Source of the DNA: Hyphomonadaceae bacterium
GTDB taxonomy: Bacteria > Pseudomonadota > Alphaproteobacteria > Caulobacterales > Hyphomonadaceae
Direction of reading: 5' to 3'
Length of the DNA stretch: 33,822 nucleotides
Assembly (NCBI GenBank): GCA_030696545.1
Contig: JAUYSA010000024.1
Location: 1 to 33,822, forward strand
Part shown: piece after piece, positions 22,961 through 33,520 of the stretch
How positions within the stretch are numbered: position 1 is the first letter of the stretch
Layout: each line of letters starts with the position of its first letter
Position numbers and translations under genes: made by a program
Notes under the pieces: model-generated
Told to the model about the DNA's origin: nothing
The model's input: only the letters and a program-made list of their open reading frames with translations
Database searches by the model: none

Positions 22961-23092
22961 CTGTCAGCGCAGACAATGCCGATTCTCGACGGGCCGTCTG
23001 CGACCGCGGAAATCCGTCGCATGGAAGCTGAGCGCGGACTTCAAAGAATTCCGATCACCGCTTTCACAGCGCCGGCTACCACCGTCGCCTGA
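22961..23092 (+). pseudogene. Receiver-domain (hybrid histidine kinase C-terminus) remnant
   Basis: In-frame LSAQTMPILDGPSATAEIRRMEAERGLQRIPITAFTAPATTVA* resembles REC signature DVQMPVMDGxxATxxIRRxExxxGxxRIPIIALTA; the aspartate pocket residue is lost. Confidence 0.5.
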
Positions 23093-24281
23093 GCTGGGCG
23101 CCCTTCGCGCGCGCGAGCAAGGCCTCCTGACGCTCACTGGCGCTCACGCGTGCAGTATCGGCTGGTAAATGATCCAATAGTGAACTGAGAGTCACAACCT
23201 CGGTTTTGATCTTCGGAAAGGCGGAATCGAAGAACCGGCAACGAACAGTCACGCGATCATAATCGGCCTTGTCGATCCAATTGAGAACGCCGGGATCGTG
23301 GCGAGAGACTACGACGCGGAGGCGTCCGTCGGAATCGACCTTGCCCTGATGAGAATTGAGACCGCATTGGCGGTTCATGAAATCAAGCGTGTTGCCCATG
23401 GCGTCCATGATCTGGACTCCCCAATAAGCGGTGGGATCGATGACATCCGTTTCCAAAATCCACGCTTCGTCATCGCCAATTTCAACAATGCCGTGCCCAT
23501 AGGCCTGGTCGCCGTAGGTCGGAAGCATGCTTGTCACTTCGATCATCGCATTCGTTGGGATCAAAGCGTGCTGCCGCTTGACGATACCGACGAAGTTTTG
23601 CGCATAGAGTTGGACGTAATTGGGGATCGCATTCAGGCGCTCGTTGTATTCCGCTGGCGTCCAATGCGCTTGCTCAATGTCTTTGTCGATCCGCTGAATG
23701 CTCAATGTTGGGTCAATGTCGTTGACCCAATCATCTGCCACGCGCCGCGCGCTAAGGTAAATATTGTCGATCTCGCGGTCGATTGGCACCCACGCGCCAT
23801 CATATCCGGCCGGCCTTTCAGCACTAAGCAGGATTTCATAGGCGCCGTCGGCAGCGATCTTGAATTCGTCAACATTGATATCACGCACGAATTTGCTCGT
23901 AGCGTCGATACCAAACTGTCCATGCTTGATCTGCAAATAGAATATTCTTGCCGTTCCCCGGTGACCGGAGACCCGATAAACGCCAGAACCACGGATGCGG
24001 CTCACGTTATACACAGTGTCCTGATTTCCATTGAAGGCGCGAATGGTACTGTTCAATAGTGGGAACCATTCAGGGTGGTCCGGATCGATGCGCGGGATCA
24101 TCAGGATCGCCTGCGTCAGAACGTGCATCAGGTGCTCGTTCACCTCGCCGGATTGCTGGGGAGTGGTCGCAAGTGAACCTTCGGAAAGCTTGTGAATCTG
24201 AAGGCCTGCTTCTCCCAATCGGCGGGTAAAATCGAGCCAGGCTTGCGCCGCCGGCGTGAGATCAGAATGAGTTAAATCCAC
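23076..24281 (-). CDS. DUF1214-domain protein (copy A)
   Basis: 401 aa; paralogous over its length to 31959-33176 (STIRAFNGNQDTVYNVSRI.., YGHGIVEIGDDEAWI, AYWGVQIMDAMGNTLDFMNRQC.LNS, HDPGVLNWID, ..RRRW C-terminus). Confidence 0.8.
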   Translation of the reverse strand: MDLTHSDLTPAAQAWLDFTRRLGEAGLQIHKLSEGSLATTPQQSGEVNEHLMHVLTQAILMIPRIDPDHPEWFPLLNSTIRAFNGNQDTVYNVSRIRGSGVYRVSGHRGTARIFYLQIKHGQFGIDATSKFVRDINVDEFKIAADGAYEILLSAERPAGYDGAWVPIDREIDNIYLSARRVADDWVNDIDPTLSIQRIDKDIEQAHWTPAEYNERLNAIPNYVQLYAQNFVGIVKRQHALIPTNAMIEVTSMLPTYGDQAYGHGIVEIGDDEAWILETDVIDPTAYWGVQIMDAMGNTLDFMNRQCGLNSHQGKVDSDGRLRVVVSRHDPGVLNWIDKADYDRVTVRCRFFDSAFPKIKTEVVTLSSLLDHLPADTARVSASERQEALLARAKGAQLRRRW

Positions 24282-24422
24282 GAAACCTCCCTTTGAATTT
24301 CAGGTGTGACCACCTGTTATTCGTCGTTATAATTCGGCGACGCCTTTTCGACCGGCGATCGATCGATGCGTCAAGGCGCACACGACCGGATCGACGGAGG
24401 TTAAAGCGGTTGAGGTCCTGAC

Positions 24423-24442
24423 ATTGTCGCCTTACCGACAAT
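24423..24442. promoter_or_regulatory. Crp-type operator ATTGTCG-N6-CGACAAT
   Basis: Perfect 7 bp inverted repeat with 6 bp spacer, 142 bp upstream of DUF1214 copy A; same half-site and spacing as 25196-25217. Confidence 0.55.
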
Positions 24443-24496
24443 CGACATCGATCGGGCGACTGATTTCGGCGGCCGGAGAGGTTCGCTCTCCTGATT

Positions 24497-25183
24497 TCAT
24501 GAATCGAGTCGAGCCGCATCCAGAATGATGATGGCGCCGTACTGGATTTCTATCAGGCCCTGCTTCTGAAGAAGGCGAAGACTCTCGTTTACGGTCTGTC
24601 GCGATAAGTCGATCATGCTGGCCATTTGCTCTTGATTGATTTCGAGCACGATATCCTTTTCGCGCCCCTGACGGACATCGCCCTGAGCTAGGTGACTTAA
24701 AAGGCGCCTCAGCCTAATTCGCGGTGGCTGCATCATCACTTCGCCGTTGAAGAACATCTGCCGACGCATATTGCCACAGAGCAGCGATGCAAAATTCTTC
24801 ATCAAGCCCGGCTGCGCTGCAATCAATGCATCGAATTGTCTGGGCGAGACTTGAAGGAGCGAGGCTTCCGAGACTGCCGACGTCGTATGATGGCGGGGCA
24901 GCGCATCAATCATCGAGACCTCACCGAACCAGCCGCCAGCCGAGCCAAATCCGGAGACGATCTCCTTTCCACTCAAATGGGTGTAGGTGTACTTGATCCG
25001 TCCAGAGCAAATGCCAAATAGCCCGTTCGGTGGATCTCCCTGCCGGTAGATAATTTTGCCAGACGGAACGTTCAGCAGATTGGCTTCGCCCAGAATCAGT
25101 TGTTGAAGCGAGGCAGGTAGTTCGGCGAACCAACCGCGTGCTCCCAGCTGTGTCGTCAAAGCCTGCGGGGTTTTCGATCTCAT
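24497..25183 (-). CDS. Crp/Fnr family transcriptional regulator
   Basis: cNMP-binding-type beta roll (GKIIYRQGDPPNGLFGICSGRIKYTYTHLSGKEIVSGFGSAGGWFGEVSMID) and HTH_Crp (INQEQMASMIDLSRQTVNESLRLLQKQGLIEI). Confidence 0.93.
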   Translation of the reverse strand: MRSKTPQALTTQLGARGWFAELPASLQQLILGEANLLNVPSGKIIYRQGDPPNGLFGICSGRIKYTYTHLSGKEIVSGFGSAGGWFGEVSMIDALPRHHTTSAVSEASLLQVSPRQFDALIAAQPGLMKNFASLLCGNMRRQMFFNGEVMMQPPRIRLRRLLSHLAQGDVRQGREKDIVLEINQEQMASMIDLSRQTVNESLRLLQKQGLIEIQYGAIIILDAARLDS

Positions 25184-25195
25184 TCACGGACCCCC

Positions 25196-25217
25196 AATTG
25201 TCGTCAGCACGACAATT
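25196..25217. promoter_or_regulatory. Crp-type operator AATTGTCGT-N4-ACGACAATT (TGTCG-N6-CGACA core)
   Basis: Perfect 9-4-9 palindrome in the divergent crp/sulfotransferase intergenic region. Confidence 0.65.
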
Positions 25218-25284: not shown

Positions 25285-26475
25285 GTGCTCGTCGACAGCC
25301 AGGCCATTTTTGACGCGTTTGACCCGCAACGGTTGCTGAAGGAGGCGCAGGAACAAGCCGGCCTTTCCGATTTTGGTGATCAGGGGTTTGTGAGCGCGCT
25401 GGAAAAGTTGCGGGAATATTGTTCCCTTGATTCCAGGCTTGACGCGATGGGGCTGGCGTCGAACCGAACGAGGATTATTCGGCATCTGGTCAATCGTCTG
25501 CGCTTTGAGGATGATCTGAAGCGCCATCCGGAAATTTTGGACGAAGAGGTGTCAGATCCGATCGTCATCCTGGGCATGCCGCGCTCTGGAACGACGAAAA
25601 CGCACCGCATGATGGGCGTCGATCCAAATTTGTTGAAAACCATCACCTGGCAGCTCGTCAACCCCGCGCCGTTTCCGAATGCGAAGCCGGGAGAACCGGA
25701 CCCCAGGATCGAGGCAGCTTATAGTCAGGAAGTGTTGCTTTCCGCCAATGACAGCAATCCAGCGCTACGCGCAGGCCATTTTTACGGGGCCCACGAGGTT
25801 CAAGAAGACCTGTGGTTGTTCCTTCTGACCTTCAACTATCCGACGAATTCGCGCCCATTTTCGCTCGGGTATCACAATTATCTTATGGCTCGGCGGGCGC
25901 CCTCAGATCTGGAGAATTACGCCTACTTCAAAAAGCTGATCCAGTATCTTCAATGGCAACAGGGCGGTCGGAATGGCCGGCGATGGCTGTTCAAGAACAT
26001 CGGAAACATGGCGTTCATGGATGAGCTCCTGCAGACGTTTCCGAACGCGAGCCTCGTGCATGTCCACCGCAAGCTGACCAGCAGCTTGCCCTCGATCATC
26101 AAATTGACGACCGAATTGATCCGTACGGAGAACGCAGAAATCAATTCAAAGGATTTAATCGCTTATCACGTGATGCGGGCCAAGATGGTCATCGACCGTT
26201 ACATGGAAAGCCGTGACCGCCTGGGTCTCGACGGTCGCATCCTCGATATTCCTTATCAGCGCATACGTACAGACTCGTTATCTGTCATTCGCGAGATCTA
26301 CCAGCACGCAGAACACACCTTGGCTCCAGAGTCCGAGCAGCTCATGAAGGATTATGAATTGACGAATGAGCAGGGCAAGCACGGCGCGCACGAGTACTCG
26401 CTGGAAGGGTACGGTCTGTCAGAGTCCGCCATCAATAACAGCTTCCGCGAGTATAACCGCCGCTATATCCTTTAG
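25285..26475 (+). CDS. Sulfotransferase family protein (copy 1)
   Basis: 5'-PSB-type P-loop ILGMPRSGTTKTHRM; VHVHRKLTSSLPSI at the 3'-PB position; GTG start with GGGGAGGAG upstream. Confidence 0.88.
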   Translation: MLVDSQAIFDAFDPQRLLKEAQEQAGLSDFGDQGFVSALEKLREYCSLDSRLDAMGLASNRTRIIRHLVNRLRFEDDLKRHPEILDEEVSDPIVILGMPRSGTTKTHRMMGVDPNLLKTITWQLVNPAPFPNAKPGEPDPRIEAAYSQEVLLSANDSNPALRAGHFYGAHEVQEDLWLFLLTFNYPTNSRPFSLGYHNYLMARRAPSDLENYAYFKKLIQYLQWQQGGRNGRRWLFKNIGNMAFMDELLQTFPNASLVHVHRKLTSSLPSIIKLTTELIRTENAEINSKDLIAYHVMRAKMVIDRYMESRDRLGLDGRILDIPYQRIRTDSLSVIREIYQHAEHTLAPESEQLMKDYELTNEQGKHGAHEYSLEGYGLSESAINNSFREYNRRYIL

Positions 26476-26756
26476 GCCGGTTAAAGCAGCGCGATCTAGC
26501 AGCTGTCATAATTCACCGAGGCTAGGCTTTGCAACCTGGGCGCGCGATTTACTGGTTGTCTCGAATACGGCGGCAGAATCGCGCTGAAGAAATCTGGGGA
26601 AACGGTCAAGCGGTGCGAGGCGCTTTCGAACCAAATTGTAGCGCGGGCGACAATCTGCGCCCCGCGCGCATGTCACAAGCTTCCGCTACGTCGGCCTACG
26701 CTAGGCTTCGCAAAACGCGATGCAGAAGAGCCCCGTGGGGAGAGGGATTCAATAAC

Positions 26757-27956
26757 GTGCTCGTAGACAGAAACACCGTCGCCGCCGCGCTGGACGCGGA
26801 CCAATTGTTGAAGGAAGCCATCGAGATCAGCGGCCTGACCGATTTCGGGGATCCGCGCTCCATCGATGCGCTGCGCGTGATGGTGAAATGCTATGCGCAG
26901 GATCTTCAAGTGGACGCCGGCGGGCTGAACACCGTGCGGAATACGATCATCCGGCAGTTGGTGAACCGGGCCCGCTTCGCGCGCGACGTCGCGCTCCATC
27001 CGGAGATCCTCGAGGAGGATGTGAGCGATCCGATCATCATCCTGGGTCAACCCCGCTCAGGCACGACCAAGACGCATCGCATGCTGGGCGTCGATCCCAA
27101 TCTGCTGAAGACTTATATGTGGCAACTGACCAATCCGGCTCCATTTCCGGACGCGGAACCTGGAAAGCCGGACCCACGTATAGCGGCGGCGAACTTCCAG
27201 GACGAACTGATCCACGCGAGCAACACGAACCCCGAGTTGCGTGCTGGCCACCTCTATAGATCGGAAGAGGTGCAATCCGACCTATTTTTATTTGGCATGA
27301 CCTTCAATTGCAACACGTTATCTTCGGGGCGCCCACCGTCTCCATCCTATTACGAGTATACGAAGATCCGCACCATCCCCTCGGAGCTCGACAACTACAA
27401 ATACGTCAAGTCGTTGTTCCAGTATCTGCAGTGGCAACAAGGCGGCCGCCGGGGAAGGCGCTGGCTCATGAAGCATGAAACCAACCATGGACGGCTCGAT
27501 GAAGTGTTGACCGTCTATCCCAAGGCGACGCTCGTACACGTCCACCGTGACCCGCGGGCGAGCGTGCCTTCCCTGCTGAAGCTGATGGTCGAATCTTACA
27601 AGGCGATCAACCCAGACGTGGCCGCGGCCGAAATCTCGCCCTTGCTCATCAAGCGCGCGGTTGACGTGATGGCCCGCTACCTGGAGGCGCGCGATCGGCT
27701 GGACCTGGATGATCGAATCTACGACGTGCCCTACGAACAGATCCGCAGTAATCCGATGCCGGTCTTCCGTGAGATCTACCGGCGCGCCGGCCATGTGCTC
27801 ACACCGGAATCCGAGGCGCTCATGCTTCAGTACGAACTGAAAAACGAGCAGGGCAAGCACGGTGCTCACAAGTACTCTCTGGAACAGTTTGGGCTAACGG
27901 AAGAAATGATACGCCGCGATTTCGGCGCGTATATCGATCGCTTCATTGAAGCATAA
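26757..27956 (+). CDS. Sulfotransferase family protein (copy 2)
   Basis: ILGQPRSGTTKTHRM P-loop and VHVHRDPRASVPSL 3'-PB-like motif; closely paralogous to copy 1; GTG start with GGGGAGAGGG upstream. Confidence 0.9.
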   Translation: MLVDRNTVAAALDADQLLKEAIEISGLTDFGDPRSIDALRVMVKCYAQDLQVDAGGLNTVRNTIIRQLVNRARFARDVALHPEILEEDVSDPIIILGQPRSGTTKTHRMLGVDPNLLKTYMWQLTNPAPFPDAEPGKPDPRIAAANFQDELIHASNTNPELRAGHLYRSEEVQSDLFLFGMTFNCNTLSSGRPPSPSYYEYTKIRTIPSELDNYKYVKSLFQYLQWQQGGRRGRRWLMKHETNHGRLDEVLTVYPKATLVHVHRDPRASVPSLLKLMVESYKAINPDVAAAEISPLLIKRAVDVMARYLEARDRLDLDDRIYDVPYEQIRSNPMPVFREIYRRAGHVLTPESEALMLQYELKNEQGKHGAHKYSLEQFGLTEEMIRRDFGAYIDRFIEA

Positions 27957-28249: not shown

Positions 28250-29152
28250 ATGAGGCCCCTCACGCATCTAGAGCACCTCGAAGCGGAGTCGATCCACATA
28301 CTGCGCGAAGTAGTGGCGGAGACCGAGAAGCCTGTAATGCTATATTCGGTGGGCAAGGACTCCGCCGTCATGCTTGATCTGGCGCTTAAGGCCTTTCACC
28401 CTTCGCCGCCTCCCTTCCCGTTGCTGCACGTCGATACGACTTGGAAATTCAAGGCGATGTACGAATTGCGCGACCGTATGGCGCGCGAAAGTGGAATGGA
28501 GTTGATCGTCTATCGGAACCCGGAGGCAGAGGCGCGCAGGATCAACCCGTTCGACCACGGCGCCCTTCATACGGACTTGTGGAAGACGGAGGGGCTGAAG
28601 CAAGCGCTGAACAAGTACGGCTTCGACGCGGCATTTGGCGGCGCCCGACGCGACGAGGAAAGAAGCCGCGCCAAGGAGCGCATATTCTCATTCCGATCGA
28701 CCCAACACCGATGGGATCCGAAGAACCAACGGCCAGAGCTTTGGAACCTCTACAACGCACACAAGGCGAAGGGCGAAAGCGTCAGAGTGTTCCCAATCTC
28801 GAACTGGACGGAACTGGATATCTGGCAATACATCCAGCTCCACGATGTGCCGATCGTGCCGCTCTACTTCGCCGCCAAACGACCGACCGTTGAGCGGGAC
28901 GGGATGTTGCTGATGGTCGATGACCATCGCTTCCCCCTTTATGCGGGCGAAGCGGCGGTCGAACGTTCAATCCGCTTTCGCACCTTGGGTTGCTATCCCC
29001 TAACGGGAGCAGTCGAGAGCCAGGCAACGACGATCAGCGAGGTGATTCAGGAGACCTTGCTCACCAGTACCTCTGAACGCCAGGGCCGCGCCATTGACAA
29101 GGATGCCGGCGGCGCCGGTATGGAAAAGAAGAAGCAAGAGGGATATTTCTGA
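28250..29152 (+). CDS. cysD: Sulfate adenylyltransferase subunit 2 (ATP sulfurylase small subunit)
   Basis: [47 protein letters not shown]-loop SGKDS-type motif; [22 protein letters not shown]-terminal [31 protein letters not shown]. Confidence 0.97.
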
Positions 29153-31059
29153 TGGAATCGGCTTCTGCTTATCGACCTGACGCGCTGATATCCAACGATA
29201 TAAATGCATATCTCGACCGTCACCAACACAAGACATTACTTCGCTTTATTACTTGTGGATCAGTGGACGATGGCAAGTCGACGCTGATCGGACGATTGCT
29301 CTACGACAGTAAGATGATTTTCGAGGATCAGCTGGCCACGCTGGAAGCCGACAGCAAGCGCATCGGCACGCAAGGTCAGGAGATCGACTTTGCGCTACTT
29401 GTGGATGGTCTGGCCGCCGAGCGCGAGCAGGGCATCACCATCGACGTCGCCTACCGCTTCTTCTCGACTGAGAAACGCAAGTTCATCGTCGCCGACACGC
29501 CCGGCCATGAGCAGTACACGCGCAACATGGTGACCGGCGCGTCAACCGCTGACCTCGCCGTAATTCTGGTGGACGCGCGCAAGGGCGTGCTTACGCAGAC
29601 GCGTCGTCATTCCTATCTCGCACACTTGGTTGGTATTCGTGACGTCGTGTTGGCCGTGAATAAGATGGACCTGGTCGGCTACGATGAGGGGATATTCGAC
29701 CAAATTGTCTCGGACTACCGCGGGTTCGCACAAAGCATCGGCGTTACGGCGTTTACACCCATCCCCATCTCGGGATTCAAGGGTGACAACATCACTGTCA
29801 GTTCGCTCAATATGCCCTGGTACACGGGACCGACGCTGATCGATTACCTGGAGCACGTTGAAGTGGATCGGCAGTCCCGCCAGGCCCAGCCCTTTCGGAT
29901 GCCGGTGCAGTGGGTCAACCGTCCCGATCTCGACTTCCGTGGATTCGCTGGCCTGATCGCCAGCGGGGGGGTCCGGCCGGGCGATCCAATACGTGTCCTC
30001 CCCTCAGGCAAGATCTCTAGCGTCGCGCGGATCGTGACGCAGGACGGCGATCTTGACGAGGCGGTGGCCGGGCAATCGGTCACCCTCACTTTCACAGACG
30101 AGCTCGATTGCTCTCGCGGCGCGGTTATCGCCGCGGCTGATGCCCCGCCCCAGTCCGCCGACCAGTTCGAGGCGACTATCGTTTGGATGGCGGATGAGGA
30201 GATGCTGCCGGGCCGCCCCTATTGGCTGAAGTCAGGTGCGCAAACCGTCAGCGCTATCGTCCAGCCGCCGAAGTATCAGATCAACGTCAACACGATGGAG
30301 CAGTTGGCGGCGAAGACGCTGGCGCTGAACGCGATCGGCGTCGCCAATTTTTCGACTGACCGGCCTTTGGTGTTCGAGCCCTATGTCGAGAACCGCACGC
30401 TGGGCAGCTTCATCATGATCGACAAGTTCACGAATGCGACCGTCGGCGCCGGCGTAATCCGGTTCGCCCTTCGGCGCGCACAGAACATCCACTGGCAGGC
30501 GGTGGAGATCGATCGGCACGCCCACGCCGAGCAGAAGTTGCAATCGCCGAAGTTGCTTTGGTTCACGGGCCTGTCGGGCTCGGGCAAGTCGACGATCGCC
30601 AATCTCGTAGAAAAGGCCCTCTACGTCCGTGGCAAGCACTCGTTTCTGCTTGACGGCGACAACGTCCGCCACGGCTTGAGCCGCGACCTGGGGTTCACCG
30701 ACGCCGACCGGGTCGAGAACATCCGGCGCGTCGGCGAGGTGGCCAAGTTGATGGTGGAGGCTGGTTTGTTCGCACTAACCGCTTTCATTTCGCCGTTCCG
30801 GGCTGAACGCCGGATGGTGCGCGACCTGATGCCTGACGGTGAGTTCATCGAGATCTTCGTCGACACGCCCTTGGAGGTGGCCGAGCAGCGTGACGTCAAG
30901 GGTCTCTATCGAAAGGCTCGCGCGGGGGAACTTGGCAACTTCACCGGCATCGACAGTCCTTACGAGCCGCCCCACACACCCGATATCCACATCGAGACCG
31001 AACGGATGACCCCTGAGGAAGCCGCGGAGTTCATCGTGGCGAAGGTGCTAGGCGAATGA
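29152..31059 (+). CDS. cysNC: Bifunctional sulfate adenylyltransferase subunit 1 / adenylylsulfate kinase (CysN/CysC)
   Basis: N-terminal GTPase [43 protein letters not shown]-terminal APS kinase [17 protein letters not shown]...[15 protein letters not shown]. Confidence 0.97.
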
Positions 31060-31793
31060 GCTCCCTTGGCGACCCTGAACTGGCGGCATGGCTTGCAGAG
31101 GCGGCTGGCCGCGTCCTGCTCGAGGTTCGCGCCAGCAACCTGTTCTCCGGCAAGGCGCTCGGCAAGGCGGGGGACCGCGTTGCAAATGCCTTGCTCATGG
31201 AGGCCATTGCAGAGCAGCGTCCGGACGACGCCGTGCTCTCTGAAGAAAGCGTGGACGACAAGGCGCGTCTGAAGTGCTCGCGGGTTTGGATCATCGATCC
31301 ACTGGACGGCACGCGGGAATATGGCGAGGGCCGGACCGACTGGGCGATCCACGTCGGCCTCGCCGTCGACGGGGTCGCCGTAGCGGGCGCGGTGGCCTTG
31401 CCCGGGCTAAACCTGGTCATGCGCAGCGACCAGCCGCCGTCCCTGCCAGCTGTAAGCAGGAGGCTGCGGATGCTGGTCAGCCGCACCCGACCTGCGGCCG
31501 AAGCAGTCGCCGTCGCCAAGGCAATGGACGCCGAGTTGACGCCGATGGGCTCGGCGGGGGCGAAGGCCATGGCGGTGGTGCGCGGAGAGGCCGACATCTA
31601 CCTGCATTCCGGCGGCCAGTACGAGTGGGACAACTGCGCGCCCGTCGCCGTCGCGCTTGCGGCGGGACTGCACGTAACGCGCATGGATGGCTCGTCGATG
31701 CGATACAACAACGAAAACAGCTGGTTGCCAGATCTACTGATTTGCCGACCGGAGCTGGCCCAGCAAGCTCAGGCGGCAATTGCTTCTTTGTAG
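31056..31793 (+). CDS. cysQ: 3'(2'),5'-bisphosphate nucleotidase
   Basis: Inositol-monophosphatase-like motifs [17 protein letters not shown], and [18 protein letters not shown] overlap with cysNC. Confidence 0.93.
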
Positions 31794-31827: not shown

Positions 31828-31958
31828 ACTTAATTGCTTTACGCGCCGCTACATCGATCCTGTACTTGTCTATCTTCAGTGAATAGCTAAATATAATGAG
31901 CGGATGAATCGGCGGCCCTACGCCCCTGCGTCCGGTTTGCAAATCTGGGATGGAAACG

Positions 31959-33176
31959 ATGTCCGACACGTTTGGCGTGCGATCCGCTGATACGTCCTCG
32001 AGCGAGGTCGCCGAAGGCTGGCGTCGCTTCACCGATGCGCTGGCGACGGCCGGCGCCGCCGTCTACGCACGAGAGAACATCGGTCGCGATGTGGCGCAGC
32101 AGGCGGAGATAACTGAATCGATGGTCTACGCCCTGATCGCTGGGCTGATGGCCTTCGCCAACGCCGATCGCGACCACCCGGAATTCACGCCTATCCTGAA
32201 CAGCGGCATCCGCCGGTTCGCGACCAACGCGGACACTGTCTACCTCCATGCGCTGATCAATGGTGCGGGACGCTATCGAATCGTCGGGCGGCGGGGCACT
32301 GTGGGCATCCTCCACTTCCAGGTCTTCGCCGGGAACATGGGAGTGTCGGAGATCTCGGCGCAGTGCGAGCTGGTCGCACCTCCGACGGCGCCAGGCGAGA
32401 ATGGCGAATTCGAGATACTGCTGAGCGACGAGCGCCCGAAAGGGTACGACGGGCTGTGGCTGCAACTCGATCCCACTTTCGCGGAGCAGTTCATCGCCGT
32501 TCGCTACGTCGCCAAGGACTGGGCGACGGAGATCGACCCGCAGATCGCCATAGAACCGCTCCACCACAGCATCCGCAAGGTGCGCGACAATCCGACGGGC
32601 CTGCTTGATCGTCTCCAACTCGTGCCCGCCTACGTCCAGGGCGTCACTGAAGAGCTGATGACGATCATGCGGAGCCAGCTGGAGAAGTCCGGCGCGCCCA
32701 ACGATGTGTACGACGTGACGCAGACGTTCCCTAACATAGCTGGCCAAGCCTACACCCACGGGCTCATCGAGATCGGTCCGAATGAGGCCTGGATCGCCGA
32801 GTGCGAGGTGCCGCAAGGTTTGTCCTACTGGGGCATCCAGCTGATGGACTTCGCCTACAACACGCTCGAATTCCCCTTCCGCCAATGCGCGATCAACAGC
32901 GATCTCGGCACGGTCGATCGCGACGGTAAGCTGCGCATCGTGGTCTGCAATCAAGACCCAGGCGTCGTAAACTGGCTCGACAACAACGGCTACGGCAAGG
33001 TCCAGATCCGCTGCCGCTGGTTCGGCTCGGCCCACCCGACCATCCGGACCAAGGTCGTGCCGCTGGCCGAGGTTCGTGATCATTTGCCGGCGGACACGGA
33101 GACGATCTCGCCGCATGAGCGCGAAGCCAGATTGCGGAAGCGATCCATCGGCGCGCAGATGCGCCGGCGCTGGTAG
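31959..33176 (+). CDS. DUF1214-domain protein (copy B)
   Basis: 405 aa; paralogue of 23076-24281 (NSGIRRFATNADTVYLHALI, YTHGLIEIGPNEAWIAE, SYWGIQLMDFAYNTLEFPFRQCAINS, QDPGVVNWLD, QMRRRW). Alternative start 31950. Confidence 0.82.
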   Translation: MSDTFGVRSADTSSSEVAEGWRRFTDALATAGAAVYARENIGRDVAQQAEITESMVYALIAGLMAFANADRDHPEFTPILNSGIRRFATNADTVYLHALINGAGRYRIVGRRGTVGILHFQVFAGNMGVSEISAQCELVAPPTAPGENGEFEILLSDERPKGYDGLWLQLDPTFAEQFIAVRYVAKDWATEIDPQIAIEPLHHSIRKVRDNPTGLLDRLQLVPAYVQGVTEELMTIMRSQLEKSGAPNDVYDVTQTFPNIAGQAYTHGLIEIGPNEAWIAECEVPQGLSYWGIQLMDFAYNTLEFPFRQCAINSDLGTVDRDGKLRIVVCNQDPGVVNWLDNNGYGKVQIRCRWFGSAHPTIRTKVVPLAEVRDHLPADTETISPHEREARLRKRSIGAQMRRRW

Positions 33177-33189
33177 AGCGCCCAGAGCG

Positions 33190-33520
33190 GCTCTGTCAGC
33201 CCAAACCATTGGCGGCAGGACCGACCGGGCTGTAGGCCTCATCGGTCATAACGAAATCGACCAGCTCGTTTCGCTACTTCGACAGCTCACCCGAGGCGAT
33301 CCGTCTCGTGGTGATGATGTAGGTGAAATACCCGCTGTCGCTGCGCAACGTGGAGGATCTCCTGCACGAGCGGGGCCTCGACATCTGCCACGAGACGGTG
33401 AGACAAGGCCGCGGCCCTGAGCTTCGTCAAGCGAGTGGCAGTCGCTCATGGCCTGAGACCAGAACGCCCCTGCCCTCACTCCGCCAGGTGGAGACAAGTT
33501 GCCGTTGGACTGACAGCACC
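33190..33520 (+). mobile_element. Internally deleted IS6-family element
   Basis: RYFDSSPEAIRLVVMM-stop-VKYPLSLRNVEDLLHERGLDICHETVR joined directly to the element's 3' end GRGPELRQ...CATGGCCTGAGACCAGAACGCCCCTGCCCTCACT...GCCGTTGGACTGACAGCACC. Confidence 0.82.

Follow-up and report, generated by a model that had tools for sequence, protein, structure and literature searches.

A predicted local Crp/Fnr-family regulon with three operator-like palindromes at a sulfotransferase locus of a Hyphomonadaceae bacterium

The cAMP pocket of E. coli CRP comprises Glu72, Arg82, Ser83, Thr127 and Ser128, and its operator has the form TGTGA-N6-TCACA. Residues 180 and 181 are correlated with operator bases, and residues 180, 181 and 185 are DNA contacts (Rodionov and colleagues, PMC1274295). 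The coo operons of Desulfovibrio and R. rubrum gave TGTCGGCNNGCCGACA as the consensus site of the CO sensor CooA (PMC545781), and the recognition helix of the R. rubrum protein, SSRQTTSTAL, contains an Arg-Gln pair (1ft9).

The window analysed here, a stretch of 33,822 nucleotides from a Hyphomonadaceae bacterium, holds a Crp/Fnr-family regulator gene (crp) that shares features with both systems (Table 1). With CooA it has in common the Arg-Gln pair and, at its predicted operators, TGTCG half-sites separated by N6. An altered Crp half-site had been claimed for this locus in the original prediction: the spacing is indeed that of TGTGA-N6-TCACA, but the half-site is not new, since it equals the published CooA consensus (PMC545781). 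The CooA regulon has linked coo (CO dehydrogenase) genes, whereas none occurs among the window genes scanned; the predicted targets here are instead sulfotransferase and DUF1214 genes, and the regulator is closer in sequence to other CRP/FNR members than to CooA. From E. coli CRP, with which it shares domain layout, half-site spacing and Arg180, the regulator differs in two contact residues (Glu181 to Gln, Arg185 to Glu), in the TGTCG half-site and in a predicted scope that is local rather than global.

Table 1. Genes and predicted operators of the locus, in window coordinates
Feature	Position	Strand	Length or sequence	Basis or context
DUF1214 copy A	23076-24281	-		Pfam/NCBIfam; predicted target of A
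Operator A (predicted)	24423-24442	none	ATTGTCGCCTTACCGACAAT	crp / DUF1214 copy A gap
crp, Crp/Fnr-family regulator	24497-25183	-	228 aa	Pfam cNMP_binding and HTH_Crp_2
Operator B (predicted)	25196-25217	none	AATTGTCGTCAGCACGACAATT	gap of divergent crp / ST1
ST1, Sulfotransfer_3 family	25285-26475	+		Pfam/NCBIfam; predicted target of B
Operator C (predicted)	26635-26654	none	ATTGTAGCGCGGGCGACAAT	ST1-ST2 gap; one mismatch
ST2, Sulfotransfer_3 family	26757-27956	+		Pfam/NCBIfam; predicted target of C
cysD, sulfate adenylyltransferase subunit 2 (PAPS supply)	28250-29152	+		Pfam/NCBIfam
cysNC, bifunctional sulfate adenylyltransferase subunit 1 / adenylylsulfate kinase	29152-31059	+		Pfam/NCBIfam
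cysQ-like, inositol-monophosphatase family	31056-31793	+		below NCBIfam CysQ cut-off
DUF1214 copy B	31950-33176	+		Pfam/NCBIfam; similarity to copy A

Both palindromes of the original prediction, A and B, are present where it had placed them, and coordinates and Pfam/NCBIfam scans bear out the gene context it gave (crp, ST1 and DUF1214 copy A); a third palindrome, C, in the ST1-ST2 gap, had been overlooked. Site A has perfect 7-bp arms around CCTTAC (ATTGTCG-CCTTAC-CGACAAT). Site B, described earlier as a perfect palindrome, has perfect 9-bp arms, but its four-base core is not symmetric (AATTGTCGT-CAGC-ACGACAATT). The two-fold symmetric layout of CRP/FNR-type operators is found at A and B as TGTCG-N6-CGACA and at C with one mismatch, which falls on a core base. 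All three sites are intergenic and lie within a span of at most 2.2 kb around the regulator gene, and every gene adjoining the regulator has a site of its own: B for crp and ST1, A for DUF1214 copy A, and C for ST2. Measured from the centre of B, the crp ATG is 23.5 bp away and the ST1 GTG 78.5 bp; the centres of A and C are 151.5 bp and 112.5 bp upstream of the DUF1214 copy A and ST2 starts, respectively. A promoter scan found no strong sigma-70 promoter near any of them.

The motif has a low genome background, one of the checks proposed with the original prediction. Exact copies of the 14-base form ATTGTCG-N6-CGACAAT number two in the 4.5-Mb genome (24423-24442 and, within B, 25197-25216), and matches with up to one mismatch are A, B and C only; 0.06 occurrences per genome would be expected if half-sites were independent, and 100 shuffles of the window yielded none at zero or one mismatch. 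Among seven inspected sites with two mismatches, most are within genes. The 12-base form TTGTCG-N6-CGACAA, expected 0.007 times per window under the same assumption, is likewise exact only at A and B. It occurs 16 times in the genome with one mismatch, once at 26636-26653 in the 281-bp ST1-ST2 gap, where the density of the 15 others over 4.5 Mb gives a chance expectation of ~0.001.

The regulator has the domains that define the CRP/FNR superfamily, an N-terminal cNMP-binding domain (PF00027, E 2.4e-17) and a C-terminal Crp-type winged helix (PF13545, E 2.3e-14). Its recognition helix is LSRQTVNESL. In an alignment to E. coli CRP, Arg180 is kept, while Glu181, Gly184 and Arg185 correspond to Gln196, Asn199 and Glu200, so the CRP triad Arg180-Glu181-Arg185 reads Arg-Gln-Glu (reference sequences for CRP and R. 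rubrum CooA were verified against 1g6n and 1ft9). A TGTCG half-site is predicted from this helix because CooA, with the same Arg-Gln pair, has the same consensus. The Glu and Arg of the cAMP pocket are also kept, but the effector is probably not cAMP, since Ser83, Thr127 and Ser128 are replaced by His, Met and Phe and the CRP pocket is thus incomplete. The N-terminal Fe-S cysteine cluster of FNR is missing too: the first 58 residues contain no cysteine. A search of the same genome at E <= 1e-5 gave no paralogue of the regulator.

Conservation of the palindrome, another check suggested earlier, was assessed before the genes of regulator homologues (~27-40% identity) found by searches at class and phylum level, of plasmids and of GTDB, in a zone from -200 to +45 of the inferred start (245 bp). 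TGTC[AG]-N6-[CT]GACA is present upstream of the regulator's own gene in 27 of the 38 other Arg-Gln regulators aligned, a set that is unevenly sampled and not independent (13 are from one family), and the strict site is absent in 11; window shuffles give ~0.001 sites per region. Because these 27 positives span at least seven families besides the window's own, autoregulation appears to be conserved in those families. Across 18 loci (319 kb), 10 of 12 motif occurrences are directly upstream of the regulator gene; most 20-kb homologous loci have exactly one site, and at many homologous loci its distance to the start is 16-40 bp, similar to that of B. Partner genes include class II aldolase in several homologues and Mpo1-like or beta-lactamase-family genes in others. 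Autoregulation is thus the apparently conserved part, with a varying partner gene. Two Aquabacterium loci contain a near-match, ATTGTCA-N6-AGACAAT.

Regulator genes that diverge from class II aldolase/adducin genes were found at L019-L022 and on Paraburkholderia and Novosphingobium plasmids; at the four loci L019-L022, each from a class-level genome, the two genes share a single palindrome between them. These regulators are 29-40% identical to ours and likewise have the Arg-Gln helix and TGTCR-N6-YGACA in the divergent gap; they differ in their partner, an aldolase rather than a sulfotransferase, and in the TGTCA half-sites of several. Three other loci (L056, L057 and L058) encode the helix SRQRVNQEL and have no TGTCR-N6-YGACA upstream; their regulators may use a different operator. 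Residue 185 was considered as the sole determinant of the fifth half-site base and rejected: Glu accompanies G/G in two of two cases and Lys accompanies A in one or both half-sites, but G/G is likewise seen with Gln, Arg or Ala at this position, and the association is only suggestive.

Searches of 200 near genomes and 385 class-level genomes gave no close relative for the locus as a whole; none was found for ST1 in the 200 near genomes, or for the regulator in 150 near genomes. The best class-level sulfotransferases, in two of the 385 genomes, are 38% identical to ST1, with no motif in the flanking DNA scanned. Since no close locus relative was found, the conservation test covers the site before the regulator gene, and A, C and the target genes, with the proposed link between regulator and sulfotransferase or DUF1214 genes, are predictions from one genome.

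We consider it highly probable that A, B and C are operators of the locally encoded regulator, with B serving crp and ST1, C serving ST2, and A serving DUF1214 copy A. A narrower reading, in which B alone is a true operator (for autoregulation and perhaps ST1) while A and C are minor or fortuitous and some other control acts on DUF1214 copy A and ST2, would fit the homologues, where the sole recurring site is the one before the regulator gene, as well as the greater distances of A and C from their starts and the core mismatch in C. We judge it unlikely, given that A is an exact match, C is the next best genome-wide, and both are intergenic and upstream of cluster genes.

The nature of the sites could also be read differently. 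A follows crp and C follows ST1, and the arms could pair, as would be expected of RNA hairpins acting as terminators or processing signals; yet a terminator scan called none of the three, all lack a T-run, B sits between divergent genes, and one arm sequence recurs with differing spacers while the half-sites are common to homologous sites, all of which makes this reading extremely improbable. Binding by a different regulator encoded elsewhere would be compatible with the several regulator families that bind palindromes and with binding by the locus regulator being itself a prediction. It seems very unlikely, however, because homologous Crp/Fnr genes in at least seven other families, set among different neighbours, have the motif upstream and the locus helix matches that of CooA.

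Under the preferred reading, that of three operators for the local regulator, a dimer would place an Arg-Gln recognition helix in each of two TGTCG half-sites, whose centres are 11 bp apart. At B it would very probably regulate crp itself, with repression the most likely mode, as 12 bp separate the end of B from the crp start codon; this proximity, shared by many homologous sites, suggests that binding blocks crp expression. Such an arrangement would very probably be a small self-controlled switch of a familiar type. From B the regulator may also control the divergent ST1, from C ST2 and perhaps the downstream cysD-cysNC-cysQ, and from A DUF1214 copy A; the distances at these three genes are compatible with activation or repression. 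The outcome would be a small local sulfation regulon with its own PAPS-synthesis genes. The autoregulated regulon of crp, ST1 and DUF1214 copy A originally proposed is supported by the uniqueness of the sites in the genome and by the homologue sites, but it was too narrow: ST2 should be added on account of C, and cysD-cysNC-cysQ possibly belongs as well. Membership of ST1, ST2 and DUF1214 copy A, like binding and the sign of regulation, is proposed here from sequence.

ST1 and ST2 are 55% identical, and the two DUF1214 copies 40%. The genome encodes a second cysNC elsewhere, 60% identical to the locus copy, so the latter may be a dedicated PAPS supply; the motif is absent from the flanking DNA scanned around the second copy. 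The cysQ-like protein likely removes PAP. No operator was found for cysD itself or at DUF1214 copy B. A minus-strand ORF at 31887-33242 (451 aa) was rejected as DUF1214 copy B for want of similarity to copy A; it overlaps the accepted copy B, has no family match and is probably a spurious shadow ORF. On the left side of the regulon, several hybrid histidine kinases are encoded in 536-22064 along with a YfiR-like protein and a TonB receptor, with no operator found near them. An inverted repeat at 24301-24316 (CAGGTG-TGAC-CACCTG), 20-35 bp upstream of the DUF1214 copy A start, scored as terminator-like on the plus strand and could alternatively be an operator.

We found nothing relevant in the literature on sulfotransferases with DUF1214 proteins or with a Crp regulator. 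For a bacterial sulfotransferase cluster that has a second PAPS-synthesis set to itself, the locus offers a testable regulon and a lead to the inducing signal. More broadly, the Arg-Gln pair goes with a TGTCR half-site in many uncharacterised Crp/Fnr regulators, and operators should therefore be predictable from protein sequence. It is a long shot that the regulator is one of a widespread but undescribed group of Arg-Gln Crp/Fnr proteins with a CooA-type autoregulatory operator, and that here it may have been recruited to sulfation and sense a pathway nucleotide, such as PAP or PAPS, in its cNMP-binding domain.

The relaxed pattern WTGTCR-N6-YGACAW occurs at three further genome sites, of which two fall inside genes. 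The third, AATGTCAGGCATGTGACAAT (L059 1500-1519; G000 contig C37:2664-2681), is intergenic on another contig, ~80 bp upstream of a TonB-dependent receptor gene, and is a possible fourth site marking a distal target of the regulator.
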